DNA of 64,000 nucleotides from Hespellia sp. (GTDB taxonomy: Bacteria; Bacillota; Clostridia; Lachnospirales; Lachnospiraceae). Under the pieces are notes generated by a model. That model saw only the letters and a list, made by a program, of their open reading frames with translations, had not been told where the DNA came from and searched no databases. Of this stretch, positions 19,350-45,477 are shown piece by piece; positions within the stretch are counted from its first letter, which is position 1; every line of letters begins with the position of its first letter. The position numbers and the translations under genes were made by a program. The stretch spans positions 1 to 64,000 of the forward strand of contig JAQVCP010000001.1 of the NCBI GenBank assembly GCA_028689735.1, in the 5' to 3' direction.

Positions 19350-20681
19350 TTATTTTGTAAAACCACTCATGATTTCATTTGCTTTCTTATACACATCCTC
19401 AGCCGGAACACCAATATAGAATTTACCGTCCTCATACAGAACCTTCCCGTTGACCATCGTCATCTTCACATTCTGTTTGCTTCCGCTGTATACGAGATTC
19501 TTTGCAATATTATTGATTGGCTGCATATTCGGCTGGTGAAGATCAATCATGATCAGATCTGCAAATTTTCCTTCTGCCAGCACATCTGCATTGTCCAGTC
19601 CCATGGCATGGGCGCCTTCTACTGTTGCCATGCGAAGAACCTTGTTCGCATCAAGGGCTGAAGCGTCATTTGCTCTCAGCTTCGCAAGCCCCGTAACCAG
19701 AAACATCTCCCGGAACATATCGAGACAGTTGTTGCTTGCAGGACCATCTGTTCCCAGTGCCACGTGAATTCCACGATCCAGCATATCTTCAATTCTTGCA
19801 ATTCCACTTGCCAGCTTCGTGTTTGATCCCGGGTTGGAAACCACATAGATGTTGCGTTTTTTCAAGATATCCAGATCTTCGTCTGTCATATGAACACAGT
19901 GATAACATGCACCGCCATTGTCGAAGATTCCAAGCTCATCCAGAATTGCTGTCGGAGTCTTTCCATATCGCTTGATGCATCCTTCCACCTCCGCCTTACT
20001 CTCTGAGCTGTGGGTATAAAGAGGTGCCTGATACTTGTGGGAAAGTGCTGCCAGCTTTTCCAGATTCTCTCTGGAGGTGGTATATTCCGCATGGAATCCC
20101 AATTCGAAACTCACCAGACTATCCTGAGCATTATATTCCAAAACATATTTTTTTACTTTGTACTTCAGATACCACTCTTCCAATTCTTCCAGTGACTGGC
20201 TGAAGTCGTTGAATCCACCACACATCACGGTACGGAAGCCACAGTCTATGGATGCCTGAGCGACCGTATCCGGTGTCAGATACATATCGAAATTCGCTGT
20301 CATTCCACTGGTCAGGTACTCCATAATTGCAAGCTTGGACAAATGATAAATATCTTCCGGTGAGAGCTTCGCCTCCATCGGAAATACCTGCTGATTCAGC
20401 CAGTCAAGGAGTGGCAGATCGTCTGCATAGGAGCGTAAAAATGTCATTCCAGAATGTGTATGTGCATTCTTAAATCCAGGCATGATGAGATTTCCATTTG
20501 CATCAATTTCTCTGTCCCAGACCTTCCCCTCTACTTTTGCGTCTTCACCTACTGCATTTTTTGCGTCTGCTGTCGGTCCAACATAAGCGATTTTATTTCC
20601 CCTTACTTGAATCTCACCCTCAAAAATCTCCCGGTTCTCTTCCATCGTAAGAATCCTTGCATTGTAAATTCTAATATTCAT
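19350..20681 (-). CDS. Amidohydrolase, 5-methylthioadenosine/S-adenosylhomocysteine/5'-deoxyadenosine deaminase family
   Basis: KNAHTHSGMTFLRSYADDLPLLDWLNQQVFPMEAKL, LGTDGPASNNCLDMFREM motifs; start chosen at MNIRIYNARILTM. Confidence 0.85.
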   Translation of the reverse strand: MNIRIYNARILTMEENREIFEGEIQVRGNKIAYVGPTADAKNAVGEDAKVEGKVWDREIDANGNLIMPGFKNAHTHSGMTFLRSYADDLPLLDWLNQQVFPMEAKLSPEDIYHLSKLAIMEYLTSGMTANFDMYLTPDTVAQASIDCGFRTVMCGGFNDFSQSLEELEEWYLKYKVKKYVLEYNAQDSLVSFELGFHAEYTTSRENLEKLAALSHKYQAPLYTHSSESKAEVEGCIKRYGKTPTAILDELGIFDNGGACYHCVHMTDEDLDILKKRNIYVVSNPGSNTKLASGIARIEDMLDRGIHVALGTDGPASNNCLDMFREMFLVTGLAKLRANDASALDANKVLRMATVEGAHAMGLDNADVLAEGKFADLIMIDLHQPNMQPINNIAKNLVYSGSKQNVKMTMVNGKVLYEDGKFYIGVPAEDVYKKANEIMSGFTK

Positions 20682-20766
20682 AATCTCATCCTTTCTGTTC
20701 TGCCTGTCCCACCAGACAATATGTGATGCATTTTCTTTCACATATCACTTTTTCCTGCGTAGTTTC

Positions 20767-21726
20767 CTATCTCTTTCCTTTGTCATAAATCTCACCAAGC
20801 GCTCTCGGTGCATTGTTATGTTTGGAGAAGAATACCAGCAACAGCAATGTCAGTACATAGGGAAGAATCATCACCAGATCCGAATAACTGCTCGGCATTC
20901 CCGCGGCCTGTACAATCTGGTAACCACCGGATTTGGCAAGTCCGAATAAGAGACATGCGCCGAGTGTCGGCATAATCTTCCAGTTACCGAAGATCAATGC
21001 TGCAATTGCCAGATATCCATATCCAACGTAAATACTCGAAGAATAATTTGCCGAAATAGAATATGCAAACGCCATACCTGCAAGGCCGGAGAGCGCACCG
21101 GACATCATAACTGCCTTGAATCTTACCTTTGCCACATCAATGCCTGCTGCGTCCACCGCATGGGGATTATCCCCACAGGCTCTCAAATGAAGACCAAACT
21201 TTGTGCGATACAACAGATACCATGCAATCGCAGCAATCACAATAATGATAACTTCAAATGGATAAATATTGGTAAATACTGCTCCAAGTACCGGAATCTT
21301 TGAGATTCCCGGAACCGTCCACCTTGCCGATACCCCAAGTACGAATTTGTCTGAAGGAGCTCCGAACACAGTACGATTGATTGATTTTGTCAGGAACGTA
21401 GTCAACGCCATCGCCAGAATATTGATGACCACACCACTAATGACCTGATCTGCCTTGAACTTTACACAAAGCACTGCATGCAGCAGCGAATATAACATTC
21501 CGCCAATCATTGCACAGACCATTGCAACATAGTACGGAATCTGTGAATCCGGTCCCAGCTTGTTCATGAGGAGAATTGCCACCAGTGCGCCGACAAACGC
21601 TCCGGCTCCCTGCAGACCTTCCAGTGCCAGGTTCGTGATTCCGCTCCGCTCACTGTAGATTCCGCCGATTGCCATAATAAAAAGGGGTAATGCAAAGGAT
21701 AATCCATCAATAATTACTTTATTCAT
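20767..21726 (-). CDS. BMP-type nucleoside ABC transporter permease 2
   Basis: 319 aa; GGIYSERSGITNLALEGLQGAGAF. Confidence 0.9.
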   Translation of the reverse strand: MNKVIIDGLSFALPLFIMAIGGIYSERSGITNLALEGLQGAGAFVGALVAILLMNKLGPDSQIPYYVAMVCAMIGGMLYSLLHAVLCVKFKADQVISGVVINILAMALTTFLTKSINRTVFGAPSDKFVLGVSARWTVPGISKIPVLGAVFTNIYPFEVIIIVIAAIAWYLLYRTKFGLHLRACGDNPHAVDAAGIDVAKVRFKAVMMSGALSGLAGMAFAYSISANYSSSIYVGYGYLAIAALIFGNWKIMPTLGACLLFGLAKSGGYQIVQAAGMPSSYSDLVMILPYVLTLLLLVFFSKHNNAPRALGEIYDKGKR

Positions 21727-22889
21727 TATTTTGCCTCCTTTCCATTTCCAGCCTGTTTTGCTGCATCTTCTATCCTGTCTTTTCCACGCTTCACCTTATA
21801 CTGAATAAATGCACCGCAGGCACTGAATAACAGAATCAGTCCGGTAATTACCGATGCAATCTCCGCATCCAGTCCCGCTGTGGAACTCATATAAGTACTT
21901 CCTTTTCCAATTACCGTAATCAGGAAAGAAGAAAAGAGGATTCCAATCGGGTTTGAATTTCCAAGAAGTGATACCGCGATCGCATCAAATCCTGTACTGG
22001 AAAGTACCTTCGGCTGAATCGATGCAAAATATCCCATATAGTAGGTAACTCCGGCGATTCCTGCCAGTGCTCCGGAAATAGTCATGGCAAGAATCACATT
22101 TTTCCCCACATTGATTCCGGCATATAGCGCTGCTTTTCCATTTGCGCCTACTGCCTTCAATTCATAACCTATGGTTGTTTTTTCAAACAAGAAGCGGATA
22201 AAAAATGCCACCAGAATCGCCAGTATGATTCCCAGCGGTATCTCGAATTTAAGATCTCCAATCTGTACATTCATCAGTGTCAATCTTGACGCATCGCTGA
22301 CAGCCTTGGACTGGCGGGATACAGGATCTACATACTTCGTGTTAATAAAAAATGCAATAATATACTCCGCAATATAGTTCAGCATAATGGAAGATACAAC
22401 CTCGTTGATGTTGAACTTGTACTTCAGCACGCCAATCAGACCTCCCACAAGACCTCCGGCAATCAAACCAATCATAATTACGAGTGGTTTTGCAATCGGT
22501 GCACTTAAGGTACTATAGCCAATCATCACCGTTGTGATGAATCCTGCTGTCAGCATCTGTCCGGAAATACCAATATTAAAGAGCCCCGCCTTCAGCGCTA
22601 CAGCCACTGAGAGTGATGCAAAAATCATCGGTGTCCAATAATTCATAAAACTGAAAAAGTCCGTCAGCATACTCTTTCCGCCGGCATACCTTGCTTTCGG
22701 CGCAATTCCGGACCCCTGCAGAAGATTCCAGTAGGCAGACAACGGATTTTTTCCAAGAAATGCAATAACCACCGCTCCTACAATCAGGCTGAGTACAATA
22801 GCAAATACCGGGATGGTAAATTTCTGATGTTTTTCATTGCCGAGTAACTTTACAAAAAATTTTGTCAATGGATCTACTTTTTGCTTCAT
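21726..22889 (-). CDS. BMP-type nucleoside ABC transporter permease 1
   Basis: 387 aa; LKAGLFNIGISGQMLTAGF. Confidence 0.9.
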   Translation of the reverse strand: MKQKVDPLTKFFVKLLGNEKHQKFTIPVFAIVLSLIVGAVVIAFLGKNPLSAYWNLLQGSGIAPKARYAGGKSMLTDFFSFMNYWTPMIFASLSVAVALKAGLFNIGISGQMLTAGFITTVMIGYSTLSAPIAKPLVIMIGLIAGGLVGGLIGVLKYKFNINEVVSSIMLNYIAEYIIAFFINTKYVDPVSRQSKAVSDASRLTLMNVQIGDLKFEIPLGIILAILVAFFIRFLFEKTTIGYELKAVGANGKAALYAGINVGKNVILAMTISGALAGIAGVTYYMGYFASIQPKVLSSTGFDAIAVSLLGNSNPIGILFSSFLITVIGKGSTYMSSTAGLDAEIASVITGLILLFSACGAFIQYKVKRGKDRIEDAAKQAGNGKEAK

Positions 22890-24418
22890 TCAGATTTCAC
22901 CCCCATCATAAATTCTCCGACTTCCTTGACTGTCAATGACTTTGCTTCAGCCGTCTTAAGAATCTCACCATTGTAGATAACTGCAATGGTATCTGCCAGA
23001 TTCATGACCTCCTCCAGTTCCAATGAAATGAGCAAAATTGCTTTTCCTTTGGAACGTTCTTCTATAATCTGATTGTGGATATTCTCAATAGCTCCGATGT
23101 CCAGTCCACGGGTGGGCTGCACGAAAATCGTAAGTGAAGAATCCTGCTCTACCTCTCTGGCGATAATCGCTTTCTGCTGATTCCCTCCACTCATGGAGCG
23201 TACCTCTGTCTTGTTCCCCTGTCCGCTTCGGATATCATATTCTTCAATCAGTTTTTCACCAAATTTTTCAAATTCCTGATGGTTGATAATTCCTTTTTTT
23301 GCAAACGGCTCCTGATAATAATTTTTCAGGGCCAGATTATCGCATAATGTAAAATCAAGCACAAGGCCATATGTCTGTCTGTCCTCTGGGATGTAAGAAA
23401 TGCCTTCCAGTGTCCGTTTGCGGATATTATAGTGAGTGATATCTTTTCCATTCAGTAGAATCTTTCCTTCTGACACATGTGCCAGACCGGCTATGGCGTC
23501 TGCAATCTCAATCTGCCCATTTCCAGATACTCCTGCAATTGCCAGAATCTCACCACTGCGGATGGAAAAAGATACATTCTTTACTACCTCGAATTTATTT
23601 TCATCTCTGACCGTAAGATTCTGCACGGAAAGAACCTCTGCTCCATACTCTGCCTCCGGCTTTTCTGTCTCAAAAGAAACTTCACGTCCCACCATCTTGT
23701 TGGCCATCTCTTTGGTGGATGTACTTGCCACATCCAGTACATCGATTAATTTACCTCTGCACAGGATTGCACAGCGATCCGCCACTTTCTTGATTTCCTC
23801 CAGTTTGTGGGTAATCAGGATAATAGTCTTTCCCGCATCCCTTAGTCCGCGGATAATATCCAGAAGAAACTCGATTTCCTGTGGAGTCAGGATGGCAGTT
23901 GGTTCATCAAAGATTAGTATTTCCGCCTCCCGGTAAAGCATCTTGAGAATCTCAACACGCTGCTGAATGGATACATTGACTTCTTCAATCCTCTTTGTCG
24001 GTTCAACTTCAAGTCCATATTTTTTAGACAAGTCCGCAATTTTCTGATTGGATGACTTGATATCTACATAGGGGAGAATACCAAGGAATTTCTTCTGCGG
24101 CTCCACCCCCATAATAATGTTCTCTGCAATTGTATAATTTGATACTAATTTAAAATGCTGATGCACCATACCTATGTTCAATTGTGTTGCATAATTTGGC
24201 GAGCTGATTGTCTCCTTTTTCCCTCTTACAAAGATTTCCCCCTCATCCGGTTCATACATGCCAAAAAGCATGCTCATCAATGTTGATTTTCCTGCACCGT
24301 TTTCTCCCAGCAATGCGTAAATTTCTCCCTTTTTTATCTGAATGTTTACCGAATCATTGGCTACGATTCCAGGGAACTTTTTCGTTATATTCTTCATTTC
24401 AACAATATAATCGGACAT
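22886..24418 (-). CDS. BMP-type nucleoside ABC transporter ATP-binding protein (two NBDs)
   Basis: 510 aa; two ABC domains (GENGAGKST; SGGNQQKAIIAREVEQDSSLTIFVQPTRGLDIGA). Confidence 0.9.
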   Translation of the reverse strand: MSDYIVEMKNITKKFPGIVANDSVNIQIKKGEIYALLGENGAGKSTLMSMLFGMYEPDEGEIFVRGKKETISSPNYATQLNIGMVHQHFKLVSNYTIAENIIMGVEPQKKFLGILPYVDIKSSNQKIADLSKKYGLEVEPTKRIEEVNVSIQQRVEILKMLYREAEILIFDEPTAILTPQEIEFLLDIIRGLRDAGKTIILITHKLEEIKKVADRCAILCRGKLIDVLDVASTSTKEMANKMVGREVSFETEKPEAEYGAEVLSVQNLTVRDENKFEVVKNVSFSIRSGEILAIAGVSGNGQIEIADAIAGLAHVSEGKILLNGKDITHYNIRKRTLEGISYIPEDRQTYGLVLDFTLCDNLALKNYYQEPFAKKGIINHQEFEKFGEKLIEEYDIRSGQGNKTEVRSMSGGNQQKAIIAREVEQDSSLTIFVQPTRGLDIGAIENIHNQIIEERSKGKAILLISLELEEVMNLADTIAVIYNGEILKTAEAKSLTVKEVGEFMMGVKSE

Positions 24419-24569
24419 CGCGTATCCTCCTTCATATTATGTGCTTGATAACCCAGGAAAGATTTCCAGAATCTTTCTATCGGATGTTTGGCAGCTTAAG
24501 ACGCAGCAAAATTCTTCTTTTACTGCTTCCTAAATTGCTAAATATATTTTATCTTTTAATGCAAGTAAA

Positions 24570-24593
24570 GGAAGGGACTTACCTATCCCTTCC
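24570..24593 (-). terminator. Internal operon hairpin/attenuator after the BMP lipoprotein gene
   Basis: GGAAGGG / CCCTTCC stem followed by TTTACTT on the minus strand. Confidence 0.5.
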
Positions 24594-24642
24594 CGACCTG
24601 CTATTTGTAACACCTCTATTGAAACGTTACCTACACGCCTCC

Positions 24643-24682
24643 CCGGCAAATGGGATACTCACAATCTGCCTCGCTGATTGTA
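24643..24682 (-). repeat. Dispersed repeat family A, copy 6
   Basis: Minus strand AATCAGCGAGGCAGATTGTGAGTATCCCATTTGCCGG. Confidence 0.5.
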
Positions 24683-24712
24683 AGTATCCTTCTGGATGTG
24701 TGTAATAAAATC

Positions 24713-25861
24713 TTACAGTCCTGTAAAGTTATCCGGAGTCATTTCATTAAAGTTAGCTGCCGGTACGATTTCACCTGCTTTTACCTTAGCAAATGCTTCA
24801 TCAATCTTTGTGATTGTATCTGCAGATAACTGGCATCTGCCTTCTTCACTTACATAACCTGTGGAGTCTGTGTCTGCACCAAGAAGTTCATTTCTGCCCT
24901 TGAATGTGCCGTCTTTTACCTTGTTCAGCTGAAGTTCAACGTTCTTGTCCATAATCTTAAGTCCTGATGTCAGGATGATGTTGCTGCTTCCATTTGCACC
25001 GTCATCATACTGGTCAACATCACAACCGATACAGTAAACATCTTTTGCTTCTTTTGCTGCTGTAAATACACCGTTTCCAGATGCGCCTGCTGCCACGAAC
25101 ATGATATCAACACCTTCATCGATGAGTGCCTGTCCTACAACCTTACCTGTTGCTTCATCAGAGAATGTTCCAACATAGTTTCCACCAACAACTTTATTTG
25201 TTACATCTGTTCCTGCGTAAGAAGGTAATTCAACAACCTGAGCTGTTGTTCCAAGATTCTTGTTTGCATAATTCACACCTGACATAAATCCATACTGGTA
25301 GTTTACGTTAGATGGATAAGCAATACCATTTACTACAGCAACTTTTCCTGTCTTTGTCTCGCATGCAGCTGCGATACCTGCGCAGAAACCACTCTCCTGC
25401 TCTTTAAATGTCATAGCATAAATGTTGTCTACTTCTGTGTCTGCGCCATCTGCATCTGTCGGGTTGGCGTCATCTAAGATGAAGTCTACATCCGGATTTT
25501 CCTGAGCAATTGTTGTAATTCCTGCGAACTGGAATCCACAGCATACGATGACATCATAGTCAGCTACGATATCAGCAACTGCCTGAACAGCTGCTGCAGT
25601 GTCACCAGTCTCTTCTTTTACCGGTGTTACGGTTGCATCTGGGTTTTCTTTGATAAATGCAAGAATACCATTGTAGTTGTTCTCATTGAAAGAACCATCA
25701 TCTACTCCGGACGGGCTGCTGACGATTGCGATCTTGAGACCACTTTTGTCCCCTGTACTTGCTGTGCTTCCTTCTTTGCTGGATGATGAACCACCACCAC
25801 AGCCTGTCAGCATGGTTGCGATCATAGCAACACATACCAGCGCGCTTACTAATTTTTTCAT
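24713..25861 (-). CDS. BMP-family substrate-binding lipoprotein (putative nucleoside binding)
   Basis: Lipobox signal peptide MIATMLTGCGGG; SSPSGVDDGSFNENNYNGILAF. Confidence 0.9.
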   Translation of the reverse strand: MKKLVSALVCVAMIATMLTGCGGGSSSSKEGSTASTGDKSGLKIAIVSSPSGVDDGSFNENNYNGILAFIKENPDATVTPVKEETGDTAAAVQAVADIVADYDVIVCCGFQFAGITTIAQENPDVDFILDDANPTDADGADTEVDNIYAMTFKEQESGFCAGIAAACETKTGKVAVVNGIAYPSNVNYQYGFMSGVNYANKNLGTTAQVVELPSYAGTDVTNKVVGGNYVGTFSDEATGKVVGQALIDEGVDIMFVAAGASGNGVFTAAKEAKDVYCIGCDVDQYDDGANGSSNIILTSGLKIMDKNVELQLNKVKDGTFKGRNELLGADTDSTGYVSEEGRCQLSADTITKIDEAFAKVKAGEIVPAANFNEMTPDNFTGL

Positions 25862-25880
25862 AAATAAATCCTCCTTTTTT

Positions 25881-25930
25881 TGAACATCAGCCTATCATAA
25901 ATTTGTTTTCAATCTATAGGCTGACACTCC
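25881..25930 (-). repeat. Hairpin repeat family B, copy 1 (5' leader of BMP lipoprotein gene)
   Basis: Minus TGTCAGCCTATAGATTGAAAACAAATTTATGATAGGCTGATGTTCAAA; 9-bp perfect outer stem TCAGCCTAT/ATAGGCTGA. Confidence 0.75.
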
Positions 25931-26008
25931 ATATCAAGTTTTCATGGAAAACCTGATACAAACTATTAATGGGTTTCTATATCAATCATTCTTAAGAATG
26001 TTCGATAA

Positions 26009-27070
26009 CTAAAATAATTTTGCAAGACTCTCTGTATATGGCGGTCTCAATATTCCTTTTTCTGTGATGATTCCATGAATCAGCTCATGATCTGTCACAT
26101 CAAATGCAGGATTATAGCATTTCACTTCCTTTAATGCCATCGGCTTTTCATAGAATTTGGAACGAATCTCATCCTCATCTCTCAGCTCAATCACAATGTC
26201 CTCACCCGTCTTGCAGTTCATATCGATTGTAGAAGTCGGCCCAAGCACATAAAATGGAATTCCGTAATGTTTTGCCAGAATTGCCACACCGCTTGTTCCG
26301 ATTTTGTTTGCTGCATCTCCGTTGGCTGCAATGCGGTCACATCCTACAAAACACGCCTGAACCCATCCATTTTTCATAACAAGGCTTGCCATGTTATCGC
26401 AGATGAGTGTCACATCGATTCCCGCCTTCTGCAGTTCATAGGACGTCAGTCTCGCCCCCTGAAGAAGAGGTCTTGTCTCATCGGAAAAAACTTTGAACTT
26501 CATACCGCGTTCATTTCCCAGAAGCATCGGACCAATAGCGGTTCCATAACGGGACGTTGCCAGTGGTCCTGCATTACAGTGGGTAAGAATGCCATCACCC
26601 TCTTTTAAAAGAGATAATCCATATTCGGAAATCTTCCGGCACATCTCAATATCTTCTCTCTGAATGGATACAGCCTCTTCTCCCAGAAGCTCGATGATCT
26701 GAGATATCTCTTTGTCCCGATTGGCCGTCACTACAGACTCCATTCTCTTCAACGCCCAGCTCAAATTCACCGCTGTCGGTCTGGAAGAATCCAGGTACTC
26801 TTTGTCTTTTTTGAACCGCGCGTAAAACAATGCAAAGTCTGATTCCGTAATCTGCTGTGCCAGACAGTAGATACTGTACCCTGCACAGATTCCAATTGCC
26901 GGGGCTCCGCGTACCTGAAGCTCCTTGATGGCTCTGTACATCTCTTCCGCCGTGGAAAGAGTTAAGTACTCTGTCACGTTAGGCAGTTTGGTCTGGTCAA
27001 TGATGACCACACTTTTTCCATCCTCACTAAGATGAACATTCTCTGCCAAAATTTCTCTCGTATTAATCAT
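26009..27070 (-). CDS. mtnA: S-methyl-5-thioribose-1-phosphate isomerase family (MtnA)
   Basis: [54 protein letters not shown]; start at MINTREIL after an AGGAGAAG RBS. Confidence 0.9.
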
Positions 27071-27153
27071 ATCATCTTCTCCTTCATTTTGAACCTCCGC
27101 ATATCGCCGGAACAGATATTTAGGTTCCATTTGCTTTCCTCCGCTGGCCTCGT

Positions 27154-28083
27154 CTATCGAAAATCAAATCCAACCTTAAACGCCTTCGATGCAAATGCAT
27201 TCTCATATTCTGCCAGCTTCCACAGCTCAATCTCAGGCAGCTCCACCAGCCCTTTATTTAAAAGCTCCAAAGCAGGCCGGAAGGGACCGCAGCGACTTCC
27301 CACAATCGTTATCTCATTGACTACGAAATAACTCAGGTCTATATTGGCAGAACCCGCATAAGTGCTTTTTAAGACAATTGTACCTTTCTTACGGACAATC
27401 TGCCTTGCCAGCTCGATTCCGCCCGGTGAACCGGTTGCGTCAATGACCACCTCATAGGAATCGGTTTCATTCCTCTCTATTTTCGCATATTTTGAGAAAT
27501 ACTTCAATTTTTCCGGATGCTTTCCAATCACGGTCAAGTCTACGCCCAACAGGGAAATCACTTCCGTAATCAGCAGTGCCAGTCTCCCGTCTCCAATAAC
27601 CGCAACGTTATCCTCCGGCCTGATATGAAGCTGATTCGGTATCTCCAGCGCTGCCGCCAAAGGTTCGGTGTAAATCGCCTTTTCTGTAGGCAGTGAATCC
27701 GGCACAACGTGAATCAGGTGATTGGCAAGGACAAAATATTCCTCAAAGGTTCCATCCAGTCCTTCCATTCCAATCACTTTACGGTCCGGGCAATGCTTCT
27801 CTCTTCCGCTTCTGCAATAAATGCAGTGACCACAGCCTTCATTCAATTCCCCAACAACCCGCTTTCCAATCAGTTCTTTCCGGTCTGATTCTTCCACGAT
27901 TCCAACAAATTCATGACCAAGCACCCCTCTGAAATCCGGTCGATAACCCCGGAGCACTTCACGGTCTGTATTGCAAATGGCACTCATGAGCACACGAATA
28001 AGACTATGTCCGGCCTTTGGCTGCGGCTTTTGATAGTCTTCTTGATAACGCGGTTCTTTTCCGTCAAAATATAATGCCTGCAT
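27154..28083 (-). CDS. Zinc-dependent medium-chain (MDR) alcohol dehydrogenase-like protein
   Basis: 309 aa; [30 protein letters not shown] structural-zinc Cys motif. Confidence 0.85.
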
Positions 28084-28116
28084 TTCAATTTCTCCTTGGA
28101 TAAATAGTATACTCTT

Positions 28117-28950
28117 TTACAGTACCTTATGGATATTCTCAATGGCAGCTGTCACAAGTGCCTTAAATTGTACGGCAACACGATCTGCCGTCTCCTGAAC
28201 CTCTTCATGGCAAAGCGGGACATCACTCATTCCACATCCAAGATTAGAAATGCAGGAAATTCCACAAATCTTCATTCCCATATGATTCGCTGCCAATGCC
28301 TCATTGGCAGTACTCATTCCCACTGCATCCGCGCCCAGAACCCGGCACATCTTCACTTCATGGGGTGACTCAAAACTTGGTCCTGTAAGCTGAATATAAG
28401 TTCCTTCCTGTAGCTTGATGCCAAGATCTGACGCCGTGCTTCGGAGCACATCTCTTAGATCCTTATCATAGATTTCACTCATATCGGGAAATCTTGTTCC
28501 GAGTTCCTCTATATTCTCGCCAATCAGCGGATTCGGAACAAAGCTTGCAATCTGATCGGTAATCATCATAAAATCACCGGCAGCAAAATCGAAATTCACA
28601 CCTCCGGCAGCATTGGTGAGGAATAATACTTTTGCCCCCATCAACTTCATCAGCCTTGTTGGAAGTACCACGTCTGTCATCGGATATCCTTCATAATAAT
28701 GAACTCTTCCCTGCATGCATACAACAGGAACTTCATTGACATAGCCAAAGATAAATCTTCCCTTATGTCCTTTTACTGTAGAAACTGGGAATCCCTCAAT
28801 ATCATGGTAATCCAATGTTGCCTCTATCTGGATATCATCGCCATAGTCCCCAAGTCCGGACCCTAGAATCAGAGCAATCTCCGGTTTAAAGTCAATACGT
28901 GCCTTCACGCTTTCATAACATTTCATCAGTTTCTCATATGCTGGGTTCAT
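28117..28950 (-). CDS. Purine-nucleoside phosphorylase (trimeric PNP/MTAP family)
   Basis: ALILGSGLGDYGD, MQGRVHYYEGYPM, LTNAAGGVN, TGPSFESPHEVKMCRVLGADAVGMST. Confidence 0.9.
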   Translation of the reverse strand: MNPAYEKLMKCYESVKARIDFKPEIALILGSGLGDYGDDIQIEATLDYHDIEGFPVSTVKGHKGRFIFGYVNEVPVVCMQGRVHYYEGYPMTDVVLPTRLMKLMGAKVLFLTNAAGGVNFDFAAGDFMMITDQIASFVPNPLIGENIEELGTRFPDMSEIYDKDLRDVLRSTASDLGIKLQEGTYIQLTGPSFESPHEVKMCRVLGADAVGMSTANEALAANHMGMKICGISCISNLGCGMSDVPLCHEEVQETADRVAVQFKALVTAAIENIHKVL

Positions 28951-28971
28951 TTATTTCCTCCGCTTTCCGGC

Positions 28972-29012
28972 ATAAGTCCGCTTAGTAAGCAGATTTCCAA
29001 TGCCATTTCATT
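28972..29012 (-). other. RNA hairpin upstream of PNP gene
   Basis: GGCAT-tggaaa-TCTGCTT-act-AAGCGGA-ctt-ATGCC nested stem on the minus strand. Confidence 0.4.
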
Positions 29013-29031
29013 TTGTAATCTATTTTGTAAT

Positions 29032-29634
29032 CTATTCTGTAATAGTTGTCGGTTCTCCCACTTCAAGTGCCATGTGATAAATCTTGGCTATATCCTCCAC
29101 ATATACACTGTTGGTATACGCCTGTGCCACATTCTCACCCACTGCAAGGACTCCGTGATTTGCCATCAAACATGCCGTCTGTTCTTTTAAAAACGGGACT
29201 GCATTCGTTCCCACTTCTTTGCTGCCCTGCTTCGCATAGGGGCTCACCTTGAGACTGCCCTTAAAGAGGATCAGCATCTCCACGAGAATCACCGGTATCT
29301 CCTTTCGCAGCACCGCAAAACTTGATGCATACGGAGAATGGGTGTGCACGATTGCGCCCACATAACTCACATTCTTATAAACCTCTGCATGCATCCGCCA
29401 CTCCGAAGAGGGCTTGTGAATCCCCTCGATGATATTCCCCTCCAGGTCCGTAATGACAATATCCTTTTCTTCCATAATAGAATAGTCATACCCACTTGGA
29501 GTGATTACCATCCAGTTCTTTTCCTTGTATAAGGCACTGACATTGCCGCTCGTCCCCGCAATCAGCTGCTCCTTATACGCTCTTTTTGCCGTGTTCAGCA
29601 CCTCACTGACCAGCTCACGTAATCCGTTCTCCAC
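29032..29634 (-). CDS. Class II aldolase/adducin family (fuculose-1-P aldolase-like)
   Basis: GTSGNVSAL, SSEWRMHAEVY, IVHTHSPYASSFA, ANHGVLAVG metal-ligand His motifs. Confidence 0.9.
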   Translation of the reverse strand: MENGLRELVSEVLNTAKRAYKEQLIAGTSGNVSALYKEKNWMVITPSGYDYSIMEEKDIVITDLEGNIIEGIHKPSSEWRMHAEVYKNVSYVGAIVHTHSPYASSFAVLRKEIPVILVEMLILFKGSLKVSPYAKQGSKEVGTNAVPFLKEQTACLMANHGVLAVGENVAQAYTNSVYVEDIAKIYHMALEVGEPTTITE

Positions 29635-29756
29635 TTACTTCGTACCCTCCTTTTCTTTTCCCGAGTAAAAATGATGGTTTTCATCTATTTTATACTCACT
29701 TTATGTCTAATTTTTTGCTATCAAAAAAGGAGACAAAAGTCTCTTCATATTATTTC

Positions 29757-29785
29757 AATTTACCTCATATTTAACCACATGTCAA
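29757..29785 (-). promoter_or_regulatory. Sigma-A-type promoter of the deoxynucleoside salvage operon
   Basis: TTGACA-17 bp-TAAATT on the minus strand upstream of the aldolase gene. Confidence 0.6.
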
Positions 29786-40663: not shown

Positions 40664-41875
40664 CTACACATAGATATAATCACTCATTACCGGCTGCAGT
40701 CCCTGCTCAAGAATCGCATCATACACCTGCTTGACACTTCTTCCGTCGGAGATTTCAAACTGTTCATCTCCCTTTGCTTCGTCATCCTCGAGATGCTCTC
40801 CGATTCCCACAGATACTCCTGCTGAAATCTTTGTTGCCGCAATTTTAATCAGATTGTTGCGGACCCGCTCGCATTCTCTGGTGGAAATTGTGATGCTCGC
40901 AAATGGCATGAAAATGCGGTACGCAGTCACCACCTGCAGGAGCTGTCTCTCGTGCACATCCATTGGATTGATCTTGTCATTATTCAGGATGGGACGAAGC
41001 CGCGGGCAGGAAAATGCAATCTCCGCATGAGGATATTTACGCTGCAATAAATACGCGTGATATCCCGTTGCAAGAGCATCCTTTCTGAAATCATCCAGAC
41101 CAAGAAGTGCAGCGAAGCCTACCCCTCTCATGCCCCCCTTGATTGCACGCTCCTGTGCATCGAAACGATAAGGAAAAATCCGCTTATGCCCGGACAAATG
41201 TAAGGTCTCATATTTGTCCGAGTTATAGGTTTCCTGAAACACCGTCACATAATCCGCACCGCATTCATGCAGATATGCATATTCATCAGAGTTCATCGGA
41301 TAAACTTCCAGACCGATGACTTTAAAATATTTTCTTGCAATCTTGCAAGCCTCCCCGATATATTTCACATCAGACATCTTGCGGCTCTCACCTGTAAGAA
41401 TCAGAATTTCCTGAAGTCCTGACTCCGCGATGATCTTCATTTCTTCTTCAATCTGCTCTTCGTTCAGTTTGGCACGATTGATTTTATTGTGGCAGTTGAA
41501 TCCACAATAGATACAATAATTCTCACAATAATTTGCAATATAAATGGGCGTGAACATATAGGTGGAATTGCCAAAATGTTTTCTTGTTTCCAGCTGCGCC
41601 CTCTGTGCCATCTCCTCCAGAAACGGAAGGGCGGCGGGCGAAATGAGTGCTTCAAAATCTTCCGGACTGCATACGTCTGCGTCCAGCGCTCTCCTTACAT
41701 CCGTAGCCGTATAAGCTGTCTCATCATACTGCTGCATCCGGCTGATCACCTGGGATTGGATGTCGGAATCCAGCACTTCCATATCCGGAAGGTAGGTCAT
41801 ATGGTCAATTCGATTTTGCTTCTGAAGCTCTTTGATTTCCTCTGTCAAAATGCTTTCATTTACCTTGCTGCTCAT
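40664..41875 (-). CDS. thiH: 2-iminoacetate synthase (radical SAM)
   Basis: 403 aa; CENYCIYCGFNCHNKINR radical-SAM motif. Confidence 0.95.
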   Translation of the reverse strand: MSSKVNESILTEEIKELQKQNRIDHMTYLPDMEVLDSDIQSQVISRMQQYDETAYTATDVRRALDADVCSPEDFEALISPAALPFLEEMAQRAQLETRKHFGNSTYMFTPIYIANYCENYCIYCGFNCHNKINRAKLNEEQIEEEMKIIAESGLQEILILTGESRKMSDVKYIGEACKIARKYFKVIGLEVYPMNSDEYAYLHECGADYVTVFQETYNSDKYETLHLSGHKRIFPYRFDAQERAIKGGMRGVGFAALLGLDDFRKDALATGYHAYLLQRKYPHAEIAFSCPRLRPILNNDKINPMDVHERQLLQVVTAYRIFMPFASITISTRECERVRNNLIKIAATKISAGVSVGIGEHLEDDEAKGDEQFEISDGRSVKQVYDAILEQGLQPVMSDYIYV

Positions 41876-41876
41876 C

Positions 41877-42671
41877 TTACGCCTCCTCCTTCTCTTTCAA
41901 AAATCCAGTCAATGGAGAGGAAGCCGCACTGCCTTTTTCAATGACACGTCCGAGTCCCGCAAGATAGGCCTCTCTTCCGGCTTCGATTGCCTTTTTAAAT
42001 GCCTGTGCCATCATCGGAATATTTCCTGCTGTCGCAATGGCAGTATTTGCCATGACTGCTGCCGCGCCCATTTCCATTGCCTGACATGCCTGAGACGGGC
42101 AGCCGATTCCTGCATCAACGATGACCGGAACATCCAGCTCGTCAATTAAAATCTGGATGAAGTCTTTGGTACAGATTCCTTTGTTGGAGCCGATTGGTGC
42201 ACCCAGCGGCATCACACAGGCAGCTCCCGCAGATACCAGATCCCTTGCGGCGTTAAGATCCGGGTACATATACGGCATGACAATAAAGCCTTCCTTTGCC
42301 AGAATCTCGGTTGCTTTGATGGTCTCATAATTATCTGGAAGCAGATATTTGGTATCGCGGATGACTTCCACTTTCACAAAATCCCCACAGCCTACTTCTC
42401 TTGATAATCTGGCAATACGCACTGCCTCCTCCGCGGTTCTGGCACCAGAGGTGTTTGGCAGAAGGGTAACTCCCTTCGGAATGTAATCCAGAATGTTGGT
42501 GTTTCCTTCATTCGCTCTGCGCAGCGCCAGTGTGATAATCTGTGCGCCTGCATTTTCCACTGCTGCCTCAATCAGATCCAGAGAATACTTTCCGGAGCCT
42601 AAGATAAATCTGGAATTGAATTCGTGTCCGCCTAATACAAATTTGTCTGTTTTTGTCTCTACTATTTTCAT
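41877..42671 (-). CDS. thiG: Thiazole synthase
   Basis: 264 aa; [60 protein letters not shown]. Confidence 0.95.
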
Positions 42672-42743
42672 TATTGTTTTCCTCGTTTCTTTTCATCATT
42701 GCAATTTGCCGCTAATTTAATTACATTTCCGTGTATTCAACCG

Positions 42744-42777
42744 GCTGTTTATCTGTTCTCTTTCACAGATAAACAGC
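42744..42777. other. 12-bp perfect hairpin between thiF and thiG
   Basis: GCTGTTTATCTG-10 nt-CAGATAAACAGC. Confidence 0.8.
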
Positions 42778-42812
42778 TTTCACTGTCAGCACGTTTTCAT
42801 AGGAAATGATTT

Positions 42813-43511
42813 TTATGGTTCTAATTCACCAACTAATATACGCAGTATCATATTGGCTTCATGGGCCGCGCATACGCCGACCCGCGGTGCTATCAGACTG
42901 AATCCACCCTCCAGTCCATTTGTCTCATCCCCGCAGAGATAAAAATGCTTCGTCACCTTTCGTGTGTGAATCAGATTGCTGCTGCCATAGCCAGCCATTC
43001 CCGAAGCCGCCACCAGAATTTTTTCCGGGTACATCTCTTCAAAAAAAATGTCAGTGAGCATTGCTTTTTCTTCCGGTCTGTCAAATGCCTCGCAGACAAT
43101 CTCCTCCCCTGCAAATAGTCCTTTTGCATTTTCCGGTGTGATTTTCACTGTATCAGATATAATCTCCAGATAGGGGTTGATGTCCAGGAGAATCTCTGTG
43201 AGTGCCTCTGTCTTTTCCCGCCCAATGTCTCTTGCACGGTACTGCTGACGGTTCAGATTGCTGATGTCCACCTTGTCAAAATCAATCAAATGAAGGTGCC
43301 CTACCCCGGCGCGCGCCAGTGCAACCGCAACCGTTGAACCAAGACCTCCGAGTCCTGCAATCGCCACCCGTCCTGCGGCAAGTTTTTCCTGTATTTCGCT
43401 AGTATGACGCTCGCATAATGCCTGGTAAATTTCTTCTTTTGTCGGTATCATTACTTCTTTTGTCGATATCATTTCTGTTAAATTCCTTTCATTCACTTTG
43501 GGCCTTATCAT
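42813..43511 (-). CDS. thiF: Sulfur carrier protein ThiS adenylyltransferase (start uncertain)
   Basis: GLGGLGSTVAVALARAGVGHLHLIDFDKVDISNLNRQQYRARDIG. Confidence 0.9.
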   Translation of the reverse strand: MIRPKVNERNLTEMISTKEVMIPTKEEIYQALCERHTSEIQEKLAAGRVAIAGLGGLGSTVAVALARAGVGHLHLIDFDKVDISNLNRQQYRARDIGREKTEALTEILLDINPYLEIISDTVKITPENAKGLFAGEEIVCEAFDRPEEKAMLTDIFFEEMYPEKILVAASGMAGYGSSNLIHTRKVTKHFYLCGDETNGLEGGFSLIAPRVGVCAAHEANMILRILVGELEP

Positions 43512-43523
43512 ACAAAGTCAGTC

Positions 43524-43724
43524 TCACCCTCCACCTACGAATGTCACGATTTCCAAAGTATCATACTCACTGAGTATCCGACTTTCGTACTGTGATTTTG
43601 GAAGAATCTCTTCATTTAATTCCACTGCGATTTTCTTCTTTTCATAGCCCAGCTTCTCGATACACTGTTCCATGGTAGTATCTTTGGGCATTTCTTCTTT
43701 TTTCCCGTTTACATAAATAGTCAT
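43524..43724 (-). CDS. thiS: Sulfur carrier protein ThiS
   Basis: 66 aa; C-terminal ...EIVTFVGGG. Confidence 0.9.
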   Translation of the reverse strand: MTIYVNGKKEEMPKDTTMEQCIEKLGYEKKKIAVELNEEILPKSQYESRILSEYDTLEIVTFVGGG

Positions 43725-43745
43725 CCTGGCTTTCCTCCTTTATCT

Positions 43746-43780
43746 CGTAAAGTGAACACGCACAATCCGCCTTACTGTTT
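43746..43780 (-). repeat. Dispersed repeat family A, copy 8 (5' of thiS)
   Basis: Minus AACAGTAAGGCGGATTGTGCGTGTTCACTTTACGAG. Confidence 0.6.
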
Positions 43781-43923
43781 TTTTGTGAACATCCCGTTCT
43801 TCTTTCGGCTGATTTTCTTACTTTCTTCTAAAAAAACGGTTCACAAAAGACTACACCCGCGGTGGTGTACCCCTTCATGAACCTTTGATTCACTCTACGT
43901 TTTCACATATAGATGTTCTTTGA

Positions 43924-45228
43924 CTACAATATATCAATATATTCGCCTGCCAGCGCTTTGTTCATGCTTCGCACTGCACAGAATTTTCCGCACATGGAAC
44001 AGGTATCGTCATGCTCCGGCTTTCTATCATCGCGGATTGCCTTTGCCGTCTCCGGGTCGATAGCACATTCCCACTGCGCTTCCCAGTCCAGCTTTTGTCT
44101 GGCATCTGCCATCTTATCATCAATCTCTCTTGCGCCGCGCACGCCTTTAGCAATGTCCGCCGCGTGAGCTGCGATCTTAGAAGCAATAATTCCCTGCTTC
44201 ACATCATCTACATTTGGCAGGGCAAGATGTTCTGCAGGTGTCACATAACAGAGGAATGCAGCTCCTGCGGATGCTGCAATTGCGCCCCCGATTGCCGATG
44301 TAATGTGGTCGTATCCCGGTGCGATATCCGTTACCAGAGGTCCCAATACATAGAAAGGTGCTCCCTGGCAGATGGTCTGCTGAATCTTCATATTCGCTGC
44401 AATCTGATCAAGCGGCATATGTCCCGGTCCCTCGACCATGACCTGCACGTCCTTTTCCCATGCACGTTTTGTCAGTTCTCCAAGCCGGACAAGCTCTTCA
44501 ATCTGGCACACATCGGAAGCATCTGCAAGACATCCCGGTCTGCAGGCATCCCCCAGAGAAATGGTCACATCATACTCCCGGCAGATTTCCAGGATATCAT
44601 CGTAATACTCATAAAATGGATTTTCCTCGCCAGTCATGCACATCCATGCAAATACCAGAGAACCACCACGGGAAACGATATTCATCTTACGCTTATGATT
44701 TTTAATCTGATCAATTGTCTTCCTTGTGATTCCACAGTGCAGTGTCACAAAATCCACACCATCTTCTGCGTGCAGTCTTACCACGTCAATAAAGTCCTTG
44801 GCAGTCAATGTCGCCAGGTCTCTCTGATAGTGAATGACAGAATCATACACCGGTACAGTTCCAATCATTGCCGGACATTCTGATGTCAGTTTTCTGCGAA
44901 ATGGAATGGTATTGCCGTGGGAAGATAAATCCATGATTGCATGGGCCCCCATTTTCACAGCCTCCATTACTTTTTCCATCTCAATGTCATAATCCTTACA
45001 ATCTCTGGAAACACCCAGATTGACATTAATCTTTGTCTGCAGCATTGAACCCACGCCTTCCGGGTTGATACATTTGTGGTTCTTATTGGCACAGATTGCC
45101 ACCTTTCCTGCTGCTACAAGAGGCATCAGCTCTTCCACTGTCATGCGTTCTTTTTTTGCAACCGCTTCCAATTCCTTTGTCACGATTCCTTTTCTTGCCG
45201 CATCCATTTGCGTTGCGTATTGTTCCAT
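43924..45228 (-). CDS. thiC: Phosphomethylpyrimidine synthase
   Basis: 434 aa; [31 protein letters not shown] [4Fe-4S] motif. Confidence 0.95.
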
Positions 45229-45264
45229 TTACATCCTCCTTTTATTACGGAGAGATAAGATTTC

Positions 45265-45305
45265 ATAAAAAAACGATGAGCCTCGTCAAAGAGTCTCATC
45301 GTCAA
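45265..45305 (-). terminator. Intrinsic terminator of TPP riboswitch expression platform
   Basis: ACGATGAGACTC-TTTGAC-GAGGCTCATCGTTTTTTT on the minus strand. Confidence 0.85.
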
Positions 45306-45320
45306 AAATCATCAACTATC

Positions 45321-45402
45321 TCCCTACGTTAGCATTACCTAAATCAGGTTGAAGGTCTAAGCAGTATCAGCTTACTCTCAGCCCACTACTGTGAGCTCCC
45401 TG
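45321..45402 (-). ncRNA. TPP riboswitch (THI element) upstream of thiC
   Basis: Minus strand CAGGGAGCTCACAGTAGTGGGCTGAGAGTAAGC...AGACCTTCAACCTGATTTAGGTAATGCTAACGTAGGGA matches the THI-box signature. Confidence 0.95.
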
Positions 45403-45477
45403 TTTTTCAATTCACTTACTATTATAACAGAGCATAGCAGAATTACAATCCCCAAAATGAAATACTCACTCGATCCT

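Follow-up and report, generated by a model that had tools for sequence, protein, structure and literature searches.

We analysed a window of 64,000 nucleotides from Hespellia sp. (Lachnospiraceae; assembly GCA_028689735.1, contig JAQVCP010000001.1, positions 1 to 64,000), in which nine consecutive genes on the minus strand (19350-29634) probably form a catabolic variant of the dihydroxyacetone phosphate (DHAP) shunt for 5'-deoxynucleosides, a class within which 5'-deoxyadenosine (5'-dAdo) and the 5'-methylthioadenosine (MTA) type are here not told apart. In the proposed pathway, a BMP-type ATP-binding cassette (ABC) transporter would take up an adenine nucleoside without a free 5'-OH, such as 5'-dAdo, MTA or their relatives, and a deaminase would convert it to the inosine derivative; deamination first would let a 6-oxopurine-specific PunA phosphorylase release hypoxanthine and a 5-modified ribose-1-phosphate. 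MtnA would then isomerise this sugar to the ribulose-1-phosphate, which a class II aldolase would cleave to DHAP and acetaldehyde or methylthioacetaldehyde, and a medium-chain dehydrogenase (MDR) would probably reduce the aldehyde produced.

A preliminary description of this DNA had proposed the order and strand of the nine genes, and every open reading frame was found at its place, from the aldolase to the deaminase. Their families, as assigned with Pfam and NCBIfam, likewise agree with that description for all nine, and mtnK, mtnN and dioxygenase-type genes are, as it said, missing from the cluster. The curated NCBIfam cut-offs are passed only by MtnA and the purine nucleoside phosphorylase (PNP); the aldolase, deaminase, MDR and transporter are broad-family matches, with no substrate-specific equivalog.

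The gene set recurs in related bacteria

We surveyed 200 Lachnospiraceae genomes, nearly all from different genera, and scanned 84,980 species genomes more widely, which returned 80 MtnA loci. Within the family, MtnA is present in 54 genomes and a close relative of the deaminase in 77. The two co-occur strongly, the deaminase being found in 41 of the 54 genomes with MtnA versus 36 of the 146 without it (odds ratio 9.6, p=7e-11, ancestry ignored). Lack of co-conservation had been named beforehand as a result that would refute the proposal; instead, the gene set is co-conserved, and the deaminase and MtnA go together family-wide.

The complete nine-gene set is known from three genomes, the window included. 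In a Lachnospiraceae metagenome-assembled genome (L092, JAUNOF010000004.1) all nine genes keep their order at 58-77% identity, with a deoR gene directly upstream. Clostridium sp. MCC353 (L094, NZ_WQPN01000012.1) carries deoR-ald2-pnp-mdr-mtnA plus dea; its BMP/ABC system is not orthologous to that of the window (24-42% identity), indicating that a nucleoside importer was paired independently with this set of enzymes. The arrangement pnp-(mdr)-mtnA-bmp-abc-perm-perm-dea is found in G048, G149, G013 and G163, and across contigs in G096, and shorter pnp/mtnA/dea cores occur in G160, G071, G154, L099, L100, L116 and L138, with the order mtnA-pnp-dea in G077. A plasmid search with the first four genes of the operon gave no near match.

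Three alternative modules precede MtnA

After removal of duplicates, the neighbourhoods of 129 mtnA loci contained three non-overlapping entry modules: mtnK (20 loci), deaminase/PunA (at least 18) and a DeoD-type phosphorylase (13). PunA occurs, with or without a linked deaminase, in 18 loci, and a deaminase is linked in 16; 14 of these 16 also have PunA (p=2e-13) and none has DeoD. Taken singly, the pairwise exclusions between modules are not significant (p 0.07 to 0.37), and all go in the same direction. Such exclusion is expected of alternative ways to make the same pentose-1-phosphate. DeoD takes 6-aminopurines directly, and a 6-oxopurine phosphorylase needs a prior deaminase; the association of the deaminase with PunA, and not with DeoD, is thus what an adenine-carrying substrate would lead one to expect.

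The DeoD-type clusters offer a further clue to the substrate. We take His4 of the hexameric phosphorylases to be a contact of O5'. It is retained in none of the 13 MtnA-linked DeoD proteins, where the PHI/PHN motif is replaced by ACI, GCI, ECN, ASI or similar, versus 12 of 15 unlinked DeoD proteins above the family cut-off (Fisher p=1.5e-5). The three unlinked proteins without His4 all come from genomes that contain MtnA, and G127 and G192 each encode both kinds of DeoD. His4 is contributed by the neighbouring subunit and contacts the sugar hydroxyls, with Glu180 and Arg87 also involved, and it binds the acyclic hydroxyl of ganciclovir and aciclovir as well (PMC3434127). Its loss therefore points to substrates without a 5'-OH and supports the idea that these sister clusters would act on such nucleosides. 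The argument covers the DeoD clusters and not the PunA of the window.

The rest of the Hespellia genome (G000, a 3.69-Mb assembly) is consistent with a phosphorylase-based entry. It contains one MtnA, one close relative of the deaminase, one PunA and two class II aldolases, and MtnK was not found in it, so a phosphorylase is the plausible feed into MtnA. Since the genome also has two intact phosphopentomutases (DeoB), ordinary ribose-1-phosphate already has its usual outlet. A third phosphopentomutase (G000:C161:41751-42888), adjoining a gene of the DeoD/uridine phosphorylase family, gave a match split into two parts that lie in different frames, likely a frameshift or an assembly error.

Properties of the predicted proteins

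The proposed 5'-dAdo/MTA deaminase (dea, 19350-20681, minus strand) is a COG0402-type amidohydrolase (PF01979). Its reading frame is open up to a GTG at 20741 (19350-20741), and the starts of its orthologues indicate the ATG at 20681. The best NCBIfam models, all under their cut-offs, are the methanogen-type PRK06038 and PRK08393 and the 5'-deoxyadenosine deaminase PRK07228; its relatives in the PDB are deaminases of MTA and S-adenosylhomocysteine, and its metal-binding and catalytic residues are invariant across orthologues. The phosphorylase (pnp, 28117-28950, minus strand) scores above the PRK08202 and TIGR01700 cut-offs and only 49 bits against the methylthioinosine phosphorylase model PRK09136 (cut-off 223); by NCBIfam it is of the PunA, 6-oxopurine type rather than MtnP.

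The isomerase (mtnA, 26009-27130, minus strand), assigned to (5-deoxy/S-methyl-5-thio)ribose-1-phosphate, reaches 409 bits with TIGR00512 (cut-off 279) versus 177 bits, under the 314 cut-off, with the ribose-1,5-bisphosphate (R15P) isomerase model. Its active-site Cys and Asp line up with those of Bacillus subtilis MtnA (2yrf/2yvk), and the alignment of orthologues favours a later start, at an ATG near 27070.

The first gene (ald2, 29032-29634, minus strand; PF00596) encodes a FucA/DrdA-type class II aldolase, the proposed 5-deoxy/5-methylthio-ribulose-1-phosphate aldolase. Its metal-binding and catalytic motifs PSSEW, VHTHSPYA and MANHG align with FucA from Escherichia coli and Streptococcus pneumoniae and with DrdA from Bacillus thuringiensis. 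In a phylogenetic tree, the aldolases of the window, L092 and L094 group together in a fully supported branch, separate from the aldolases that adjoin mtnA in most other genomes. A class II aldolase adjoins mtnA in 37 of the 129 loci, and these belong to separate lineages; we therefore conclude that class II aldolases of more than one lineage ended up beside mtnA. Of the MtnA-containing Lachnospiraceae genomes in which a match to ald2 was sought, L086 (G141:C5:75322-77033) has the closest aldolase (41%), followed immediately by a divergent MtnA-like protein (30% identical).

The zinc-dependent dehydrogenase (mdr, 27154-28083, minus strand; PF08240) conserves among orthologues four structural Cys and the catalytic Cys/His/Glu zinc ligands. 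The gene lies between pnp and mtnA in L031, L032, L085, L092 and L094, and between pnp and bmp in L172. From its family and position, there is about an even chance that it reduces the aldehyde made by the pathway. Acetaldehyde from the DHAP shunt of E. coli goes to ethanol, and also to acetate under anaerobic conditions, which gives an alcohol dehydrogenase a plausible place in the operon.

The importer comprises a PnrA/BMP-family lipoprotein, proposed to bind nucleosides (bmp, 24713-25861; PF02608), an ATPase with two ATPase domains (abcA, 22886-24418; two stretches of PF00005) and two permeases of the BMP-type nucleoside ABC family (perm1, 21726-22889, and perm2, 20767-21726; PF02653), all encoded on the minus strand. 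The PDB relatives of the lipoprotein include the BMP-family lipoproteins tmpC and BmpD. We are fairly confident, judging by family and position, that this system would import a nucleoside.

Comparison with known pathways

In the DHAP shunt of B. thuringiensis (DrdKIA) and E. coli ATCC 25922 (mtnK-mtnA-ald2), as in the scheme proposed here, MtnA is followed by a class II aldolase that yields DHAP and an aldehyde, and the gene clusters include transporters. The kinase, isomerase and aldolase were characterised by Beaudoin et al. (PMC6079011), and MtnA and Ald2 handle both 5-deoxy and 5-methylthio sugars (PMC6079011, PMC10986504). In E. coli, the operon is inducible and regulated by a DeoR-type repressor (PMC12632272), recalling the deoR genes of L092 and L094. 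Unlike the two published entries, MtnN plus MtnK or MtnP (PMC10986504), that of the window consists of a deaminase and PunA and would release hypoxanthine instead of adenine; the BMP-type importer and the MDR dehydrogenase also set it apart. Under this published definition of entries, the cluster is DHAP-shunt-like and a new entry variant, not a standard member.

Three other systems share parts of the scheme. In Clostridium phytofermentans, another member of the Clostridia, a phosphorylase, MtnA and a class II aldolase cluster together, from which direct production of 5-deoxyribose-1-phosphate by the phosphorylase was noted (PMC6079011); that phosphorylase, however, was described as a homologue of MTA phosphorylase, and a deaminase is not mentioned. 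For Methanocaldococcus jannaschii, a review (PMC6302742) gives deamination by DadD, phosphorolysis of the inosine derivative by a promiscuous phosphorylase (MTIP) and isomerisation by MtnA. As presented there, this route differs from that of the window in the phosphorylase family (MTIP rather than PunA) and in its product, proposed to go to 6-deoxy-5-ketofructose-1-phosphate, and no importer or operon is described there. The haloarchaeal non-carboxylating pentose bisphosphate pathway (PMC9700705) likewise starts with a nucleoside phosphorylase and ends with a ribulose-1-phosphate-type aldol cleavage to DHAP and an aldehyde that is then reduced, but it uses a ribose-1-phosphate kinase, an R15P isomerase and a ribulose bisphosphate phosphatase, none of which is encoded in the cluster. 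The deaminase/PunA/BMP arrangement was not found described in the open-access literature, most subscription journals lying outside the search.

Alternative interpretations

Several observations weigh against a dedicated 5'-deoxynucleoside pathway. The PNP retains the residue aligned with human His257, the His that touches the 5'-OH in human PNP. Its loop FVPxPL, in place of the usual NLTGxNPL, had suggested a specialised 5'-pocket, a candidate that we rejected: most of 40 unlinked PunA proteins of the family have the same loop and nearly all have the His, indicating a feature of the clade rather than a pocket specialisation. In the MtnA-linked PunA of G163, G071 and G102, the His is replaced by D or G. 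The operon PNP is thus best read as a general PunA, like the housekeeping PunA of Lachnospiraceae, and substrate specificity would have to rest on the deaminase, the transporter and MtnA. Additionally, the aldolase lies outside the DrdA branch of the tree and is part of the operon in only the three genomes mentioned above. The deaminase-PNP pair also occurs in genomes without MtnA (loci L172-L211) and is therefore not dedicated to it. Finally, an MtnN above the family cut-off is encoded on another contig (G000:C116:2936-3622) and offers a possible existing outlet for endogenous MTA and 5'-dAdo. The original idea of a deaminase, phosphorylase, MtnA and aldolase served by an importer is consequently upheld by co-conservation and by the altered pocket of the DeoD proteins, but weakened by a PNP like any ordinary PunA and by the presence of MtnN.

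The resemblance to ordinary PunA would suit a pathway for ordinary purine ribonucleosides, in which adenosine would be converted to inosine, PunA and MtnA would lead through ribose-1-phosphate to ribulose-1-phosphate, the aldolase would yield DHAP and glycolaldehyde and the MDR would make ethylene glycol; such a pathway would resemble that of haloarchaea without its kinase. In its favour, ordinary nucleosides are the cargo of BMP family importers, glycolaldehyde is a substrate of FucA-type aldolases, haloarchaea have a ribulose-1-phosphate aldolase and a glycolaldehyde reductase, and ald2 shows a weak match to RU1PAldHalo. We nevertheless consider this pathway unlikely: ribose-1-phosphate is served in this genome by two intact phosphopentomutases, MtnA-linked DeoD proteins have lost the sugar-hydroxyl ligand His4, and mtnA clusters with mtnK, whose characterised relative in B. 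thuringiensis took none of the tested sugars other than 5-deoxyribose and methylthioribose. Alternatively, a single transcript might serve two jobs, with the transporter, deaminase and PNP for nucleoside uptake and purine salvage, and MtnA, the aldolase and the MDR for disposal of endogenous by-products of S-adenosylmethionine (SAM). Many genomes have the deaminase-PNP pair without MtnA, and G019 even combines pnp-mdr-bmp-abc-perm-perm-dea, without mtnA, with an mtnA located elsewhere beside mtnK and ald2. Such a division is rather improbable in view of the strong co-occurrence of the deaminase and MtnA, the repeated insertion of mtnA between pnp and bmp, and the lack of a kinase in G000, where MtnA would be fed only via PNP. 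Methionine salvage, as a remnant or in a variant form, with MtnA followed by an MtnB-like dehydratase and sulfur returning to methionine, is very improbable and was rejected on the MtnB cut-off. A member of the MtnA family is present and MtnB shares the class II aldolase fold, but ald2 scores far under that cut-off (78.7 bits, cut-off 137.05) and keeps the FucA aldolase motifs; the cluster, where the search for them was made, has no mtnW/X/C/D, and MtnD requires oxygen in a host that is probably a strict anaerobe. A 5'-deoxynucleoside pathway thus remains the preferred explanation.

Transcription signals, neighbouring genes and related clusters

The genes are tightly spaced, with the exception of the mtnA-bmp (147 bp) and bmp-abcA (294 bp) gaps. 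The operon had been placed behind one good promoter, and a putative site TTGACA-17-TAAATT (10/12 matches in a consensus scan) is indeed present at 29757-29785 on the minus strand. A single operon promoter is not established there, because the region holds 31 such sites versus 25 +/- 6 expected by chance and because a hairpin with a T run (29730-29743, minus strand) lies directly downstream, ahead of ald2. This hairpin would serve the upstream Na/Pi-PhoU gene as a terminator or else act as an attenuator. The bmp-abcA gap (24419-24712, minus strand) is predicted to fold far more stably than shuffled sequences (z -7.1). We dropped a riboswitch as its explanation, since the gap matches no Rfam family at the gathering threshold, has no second copy found in its own genome and is not conserved across orthologous clusters; it is possibly a processing or attenuation element following the binding-protein gene.

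ThiC and ThiH are, as previously described, encoded in the same window, in an ordinary thiamine operon (40664-45412, minus strand) with a thiamine pyrophosphate riboswitch, ThiC, a ThiF-like protein, ThiG and a ThiH-like radical SAM protein. Apart from lying close to the nucleoside operon, they show no evident connection with it, and closeness by itself is not evidence that the two are functionally linked.

Other clusters contain further recurrent genes. Cupin_5 (DUF985) genes recur beside mtnA/phosphorylase/aldolase clusters (L081:5020-5523, L080:8800-9270, L082 and L037), and DUF985 may take part in the metabolism of 5-deoxypentoses; L081 and L082 also contain a Gfo/Idh/MocA oxidoreductase that could stand in for the MDR. 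The mtnA cluster at L059:9074-18378 has a BMP/ABC transporter and two DeoD-family phosphorylases, and lies near transketolase-like genes and a RuBisCO-like protein (closest to MtnW, under the cut-off), recalling RuBisCO-like methylthioribulose routes. The pnp-dea pair is itself widespread in Lachnospiraceae and, in a scan of 30 genomes for MtnN, nearly every genome without MtnN had the deaminase, which suggests that the deaminase may be able to replace MtnN for SAM by-products.

Significance

If our interpretation is correct, the operon would represent a third, deaminase-based entry into the DHAP shunt, and would account for the use or disposal, by gut-type anaerobes that have no mtnK, of the by-products of radical SAM enzymes and polyamine synthesis. 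The loss of His4 in MtnA-linked DeoD proteins provides a sequence marker for phosphorylases that possibly prefer 5'-deoxynucleosides. With three interchangeable entry modules ahead of MtnA and the aldolase, what becomes of 5'-deoxynucleosides in anaerobic communities would be directly testable.

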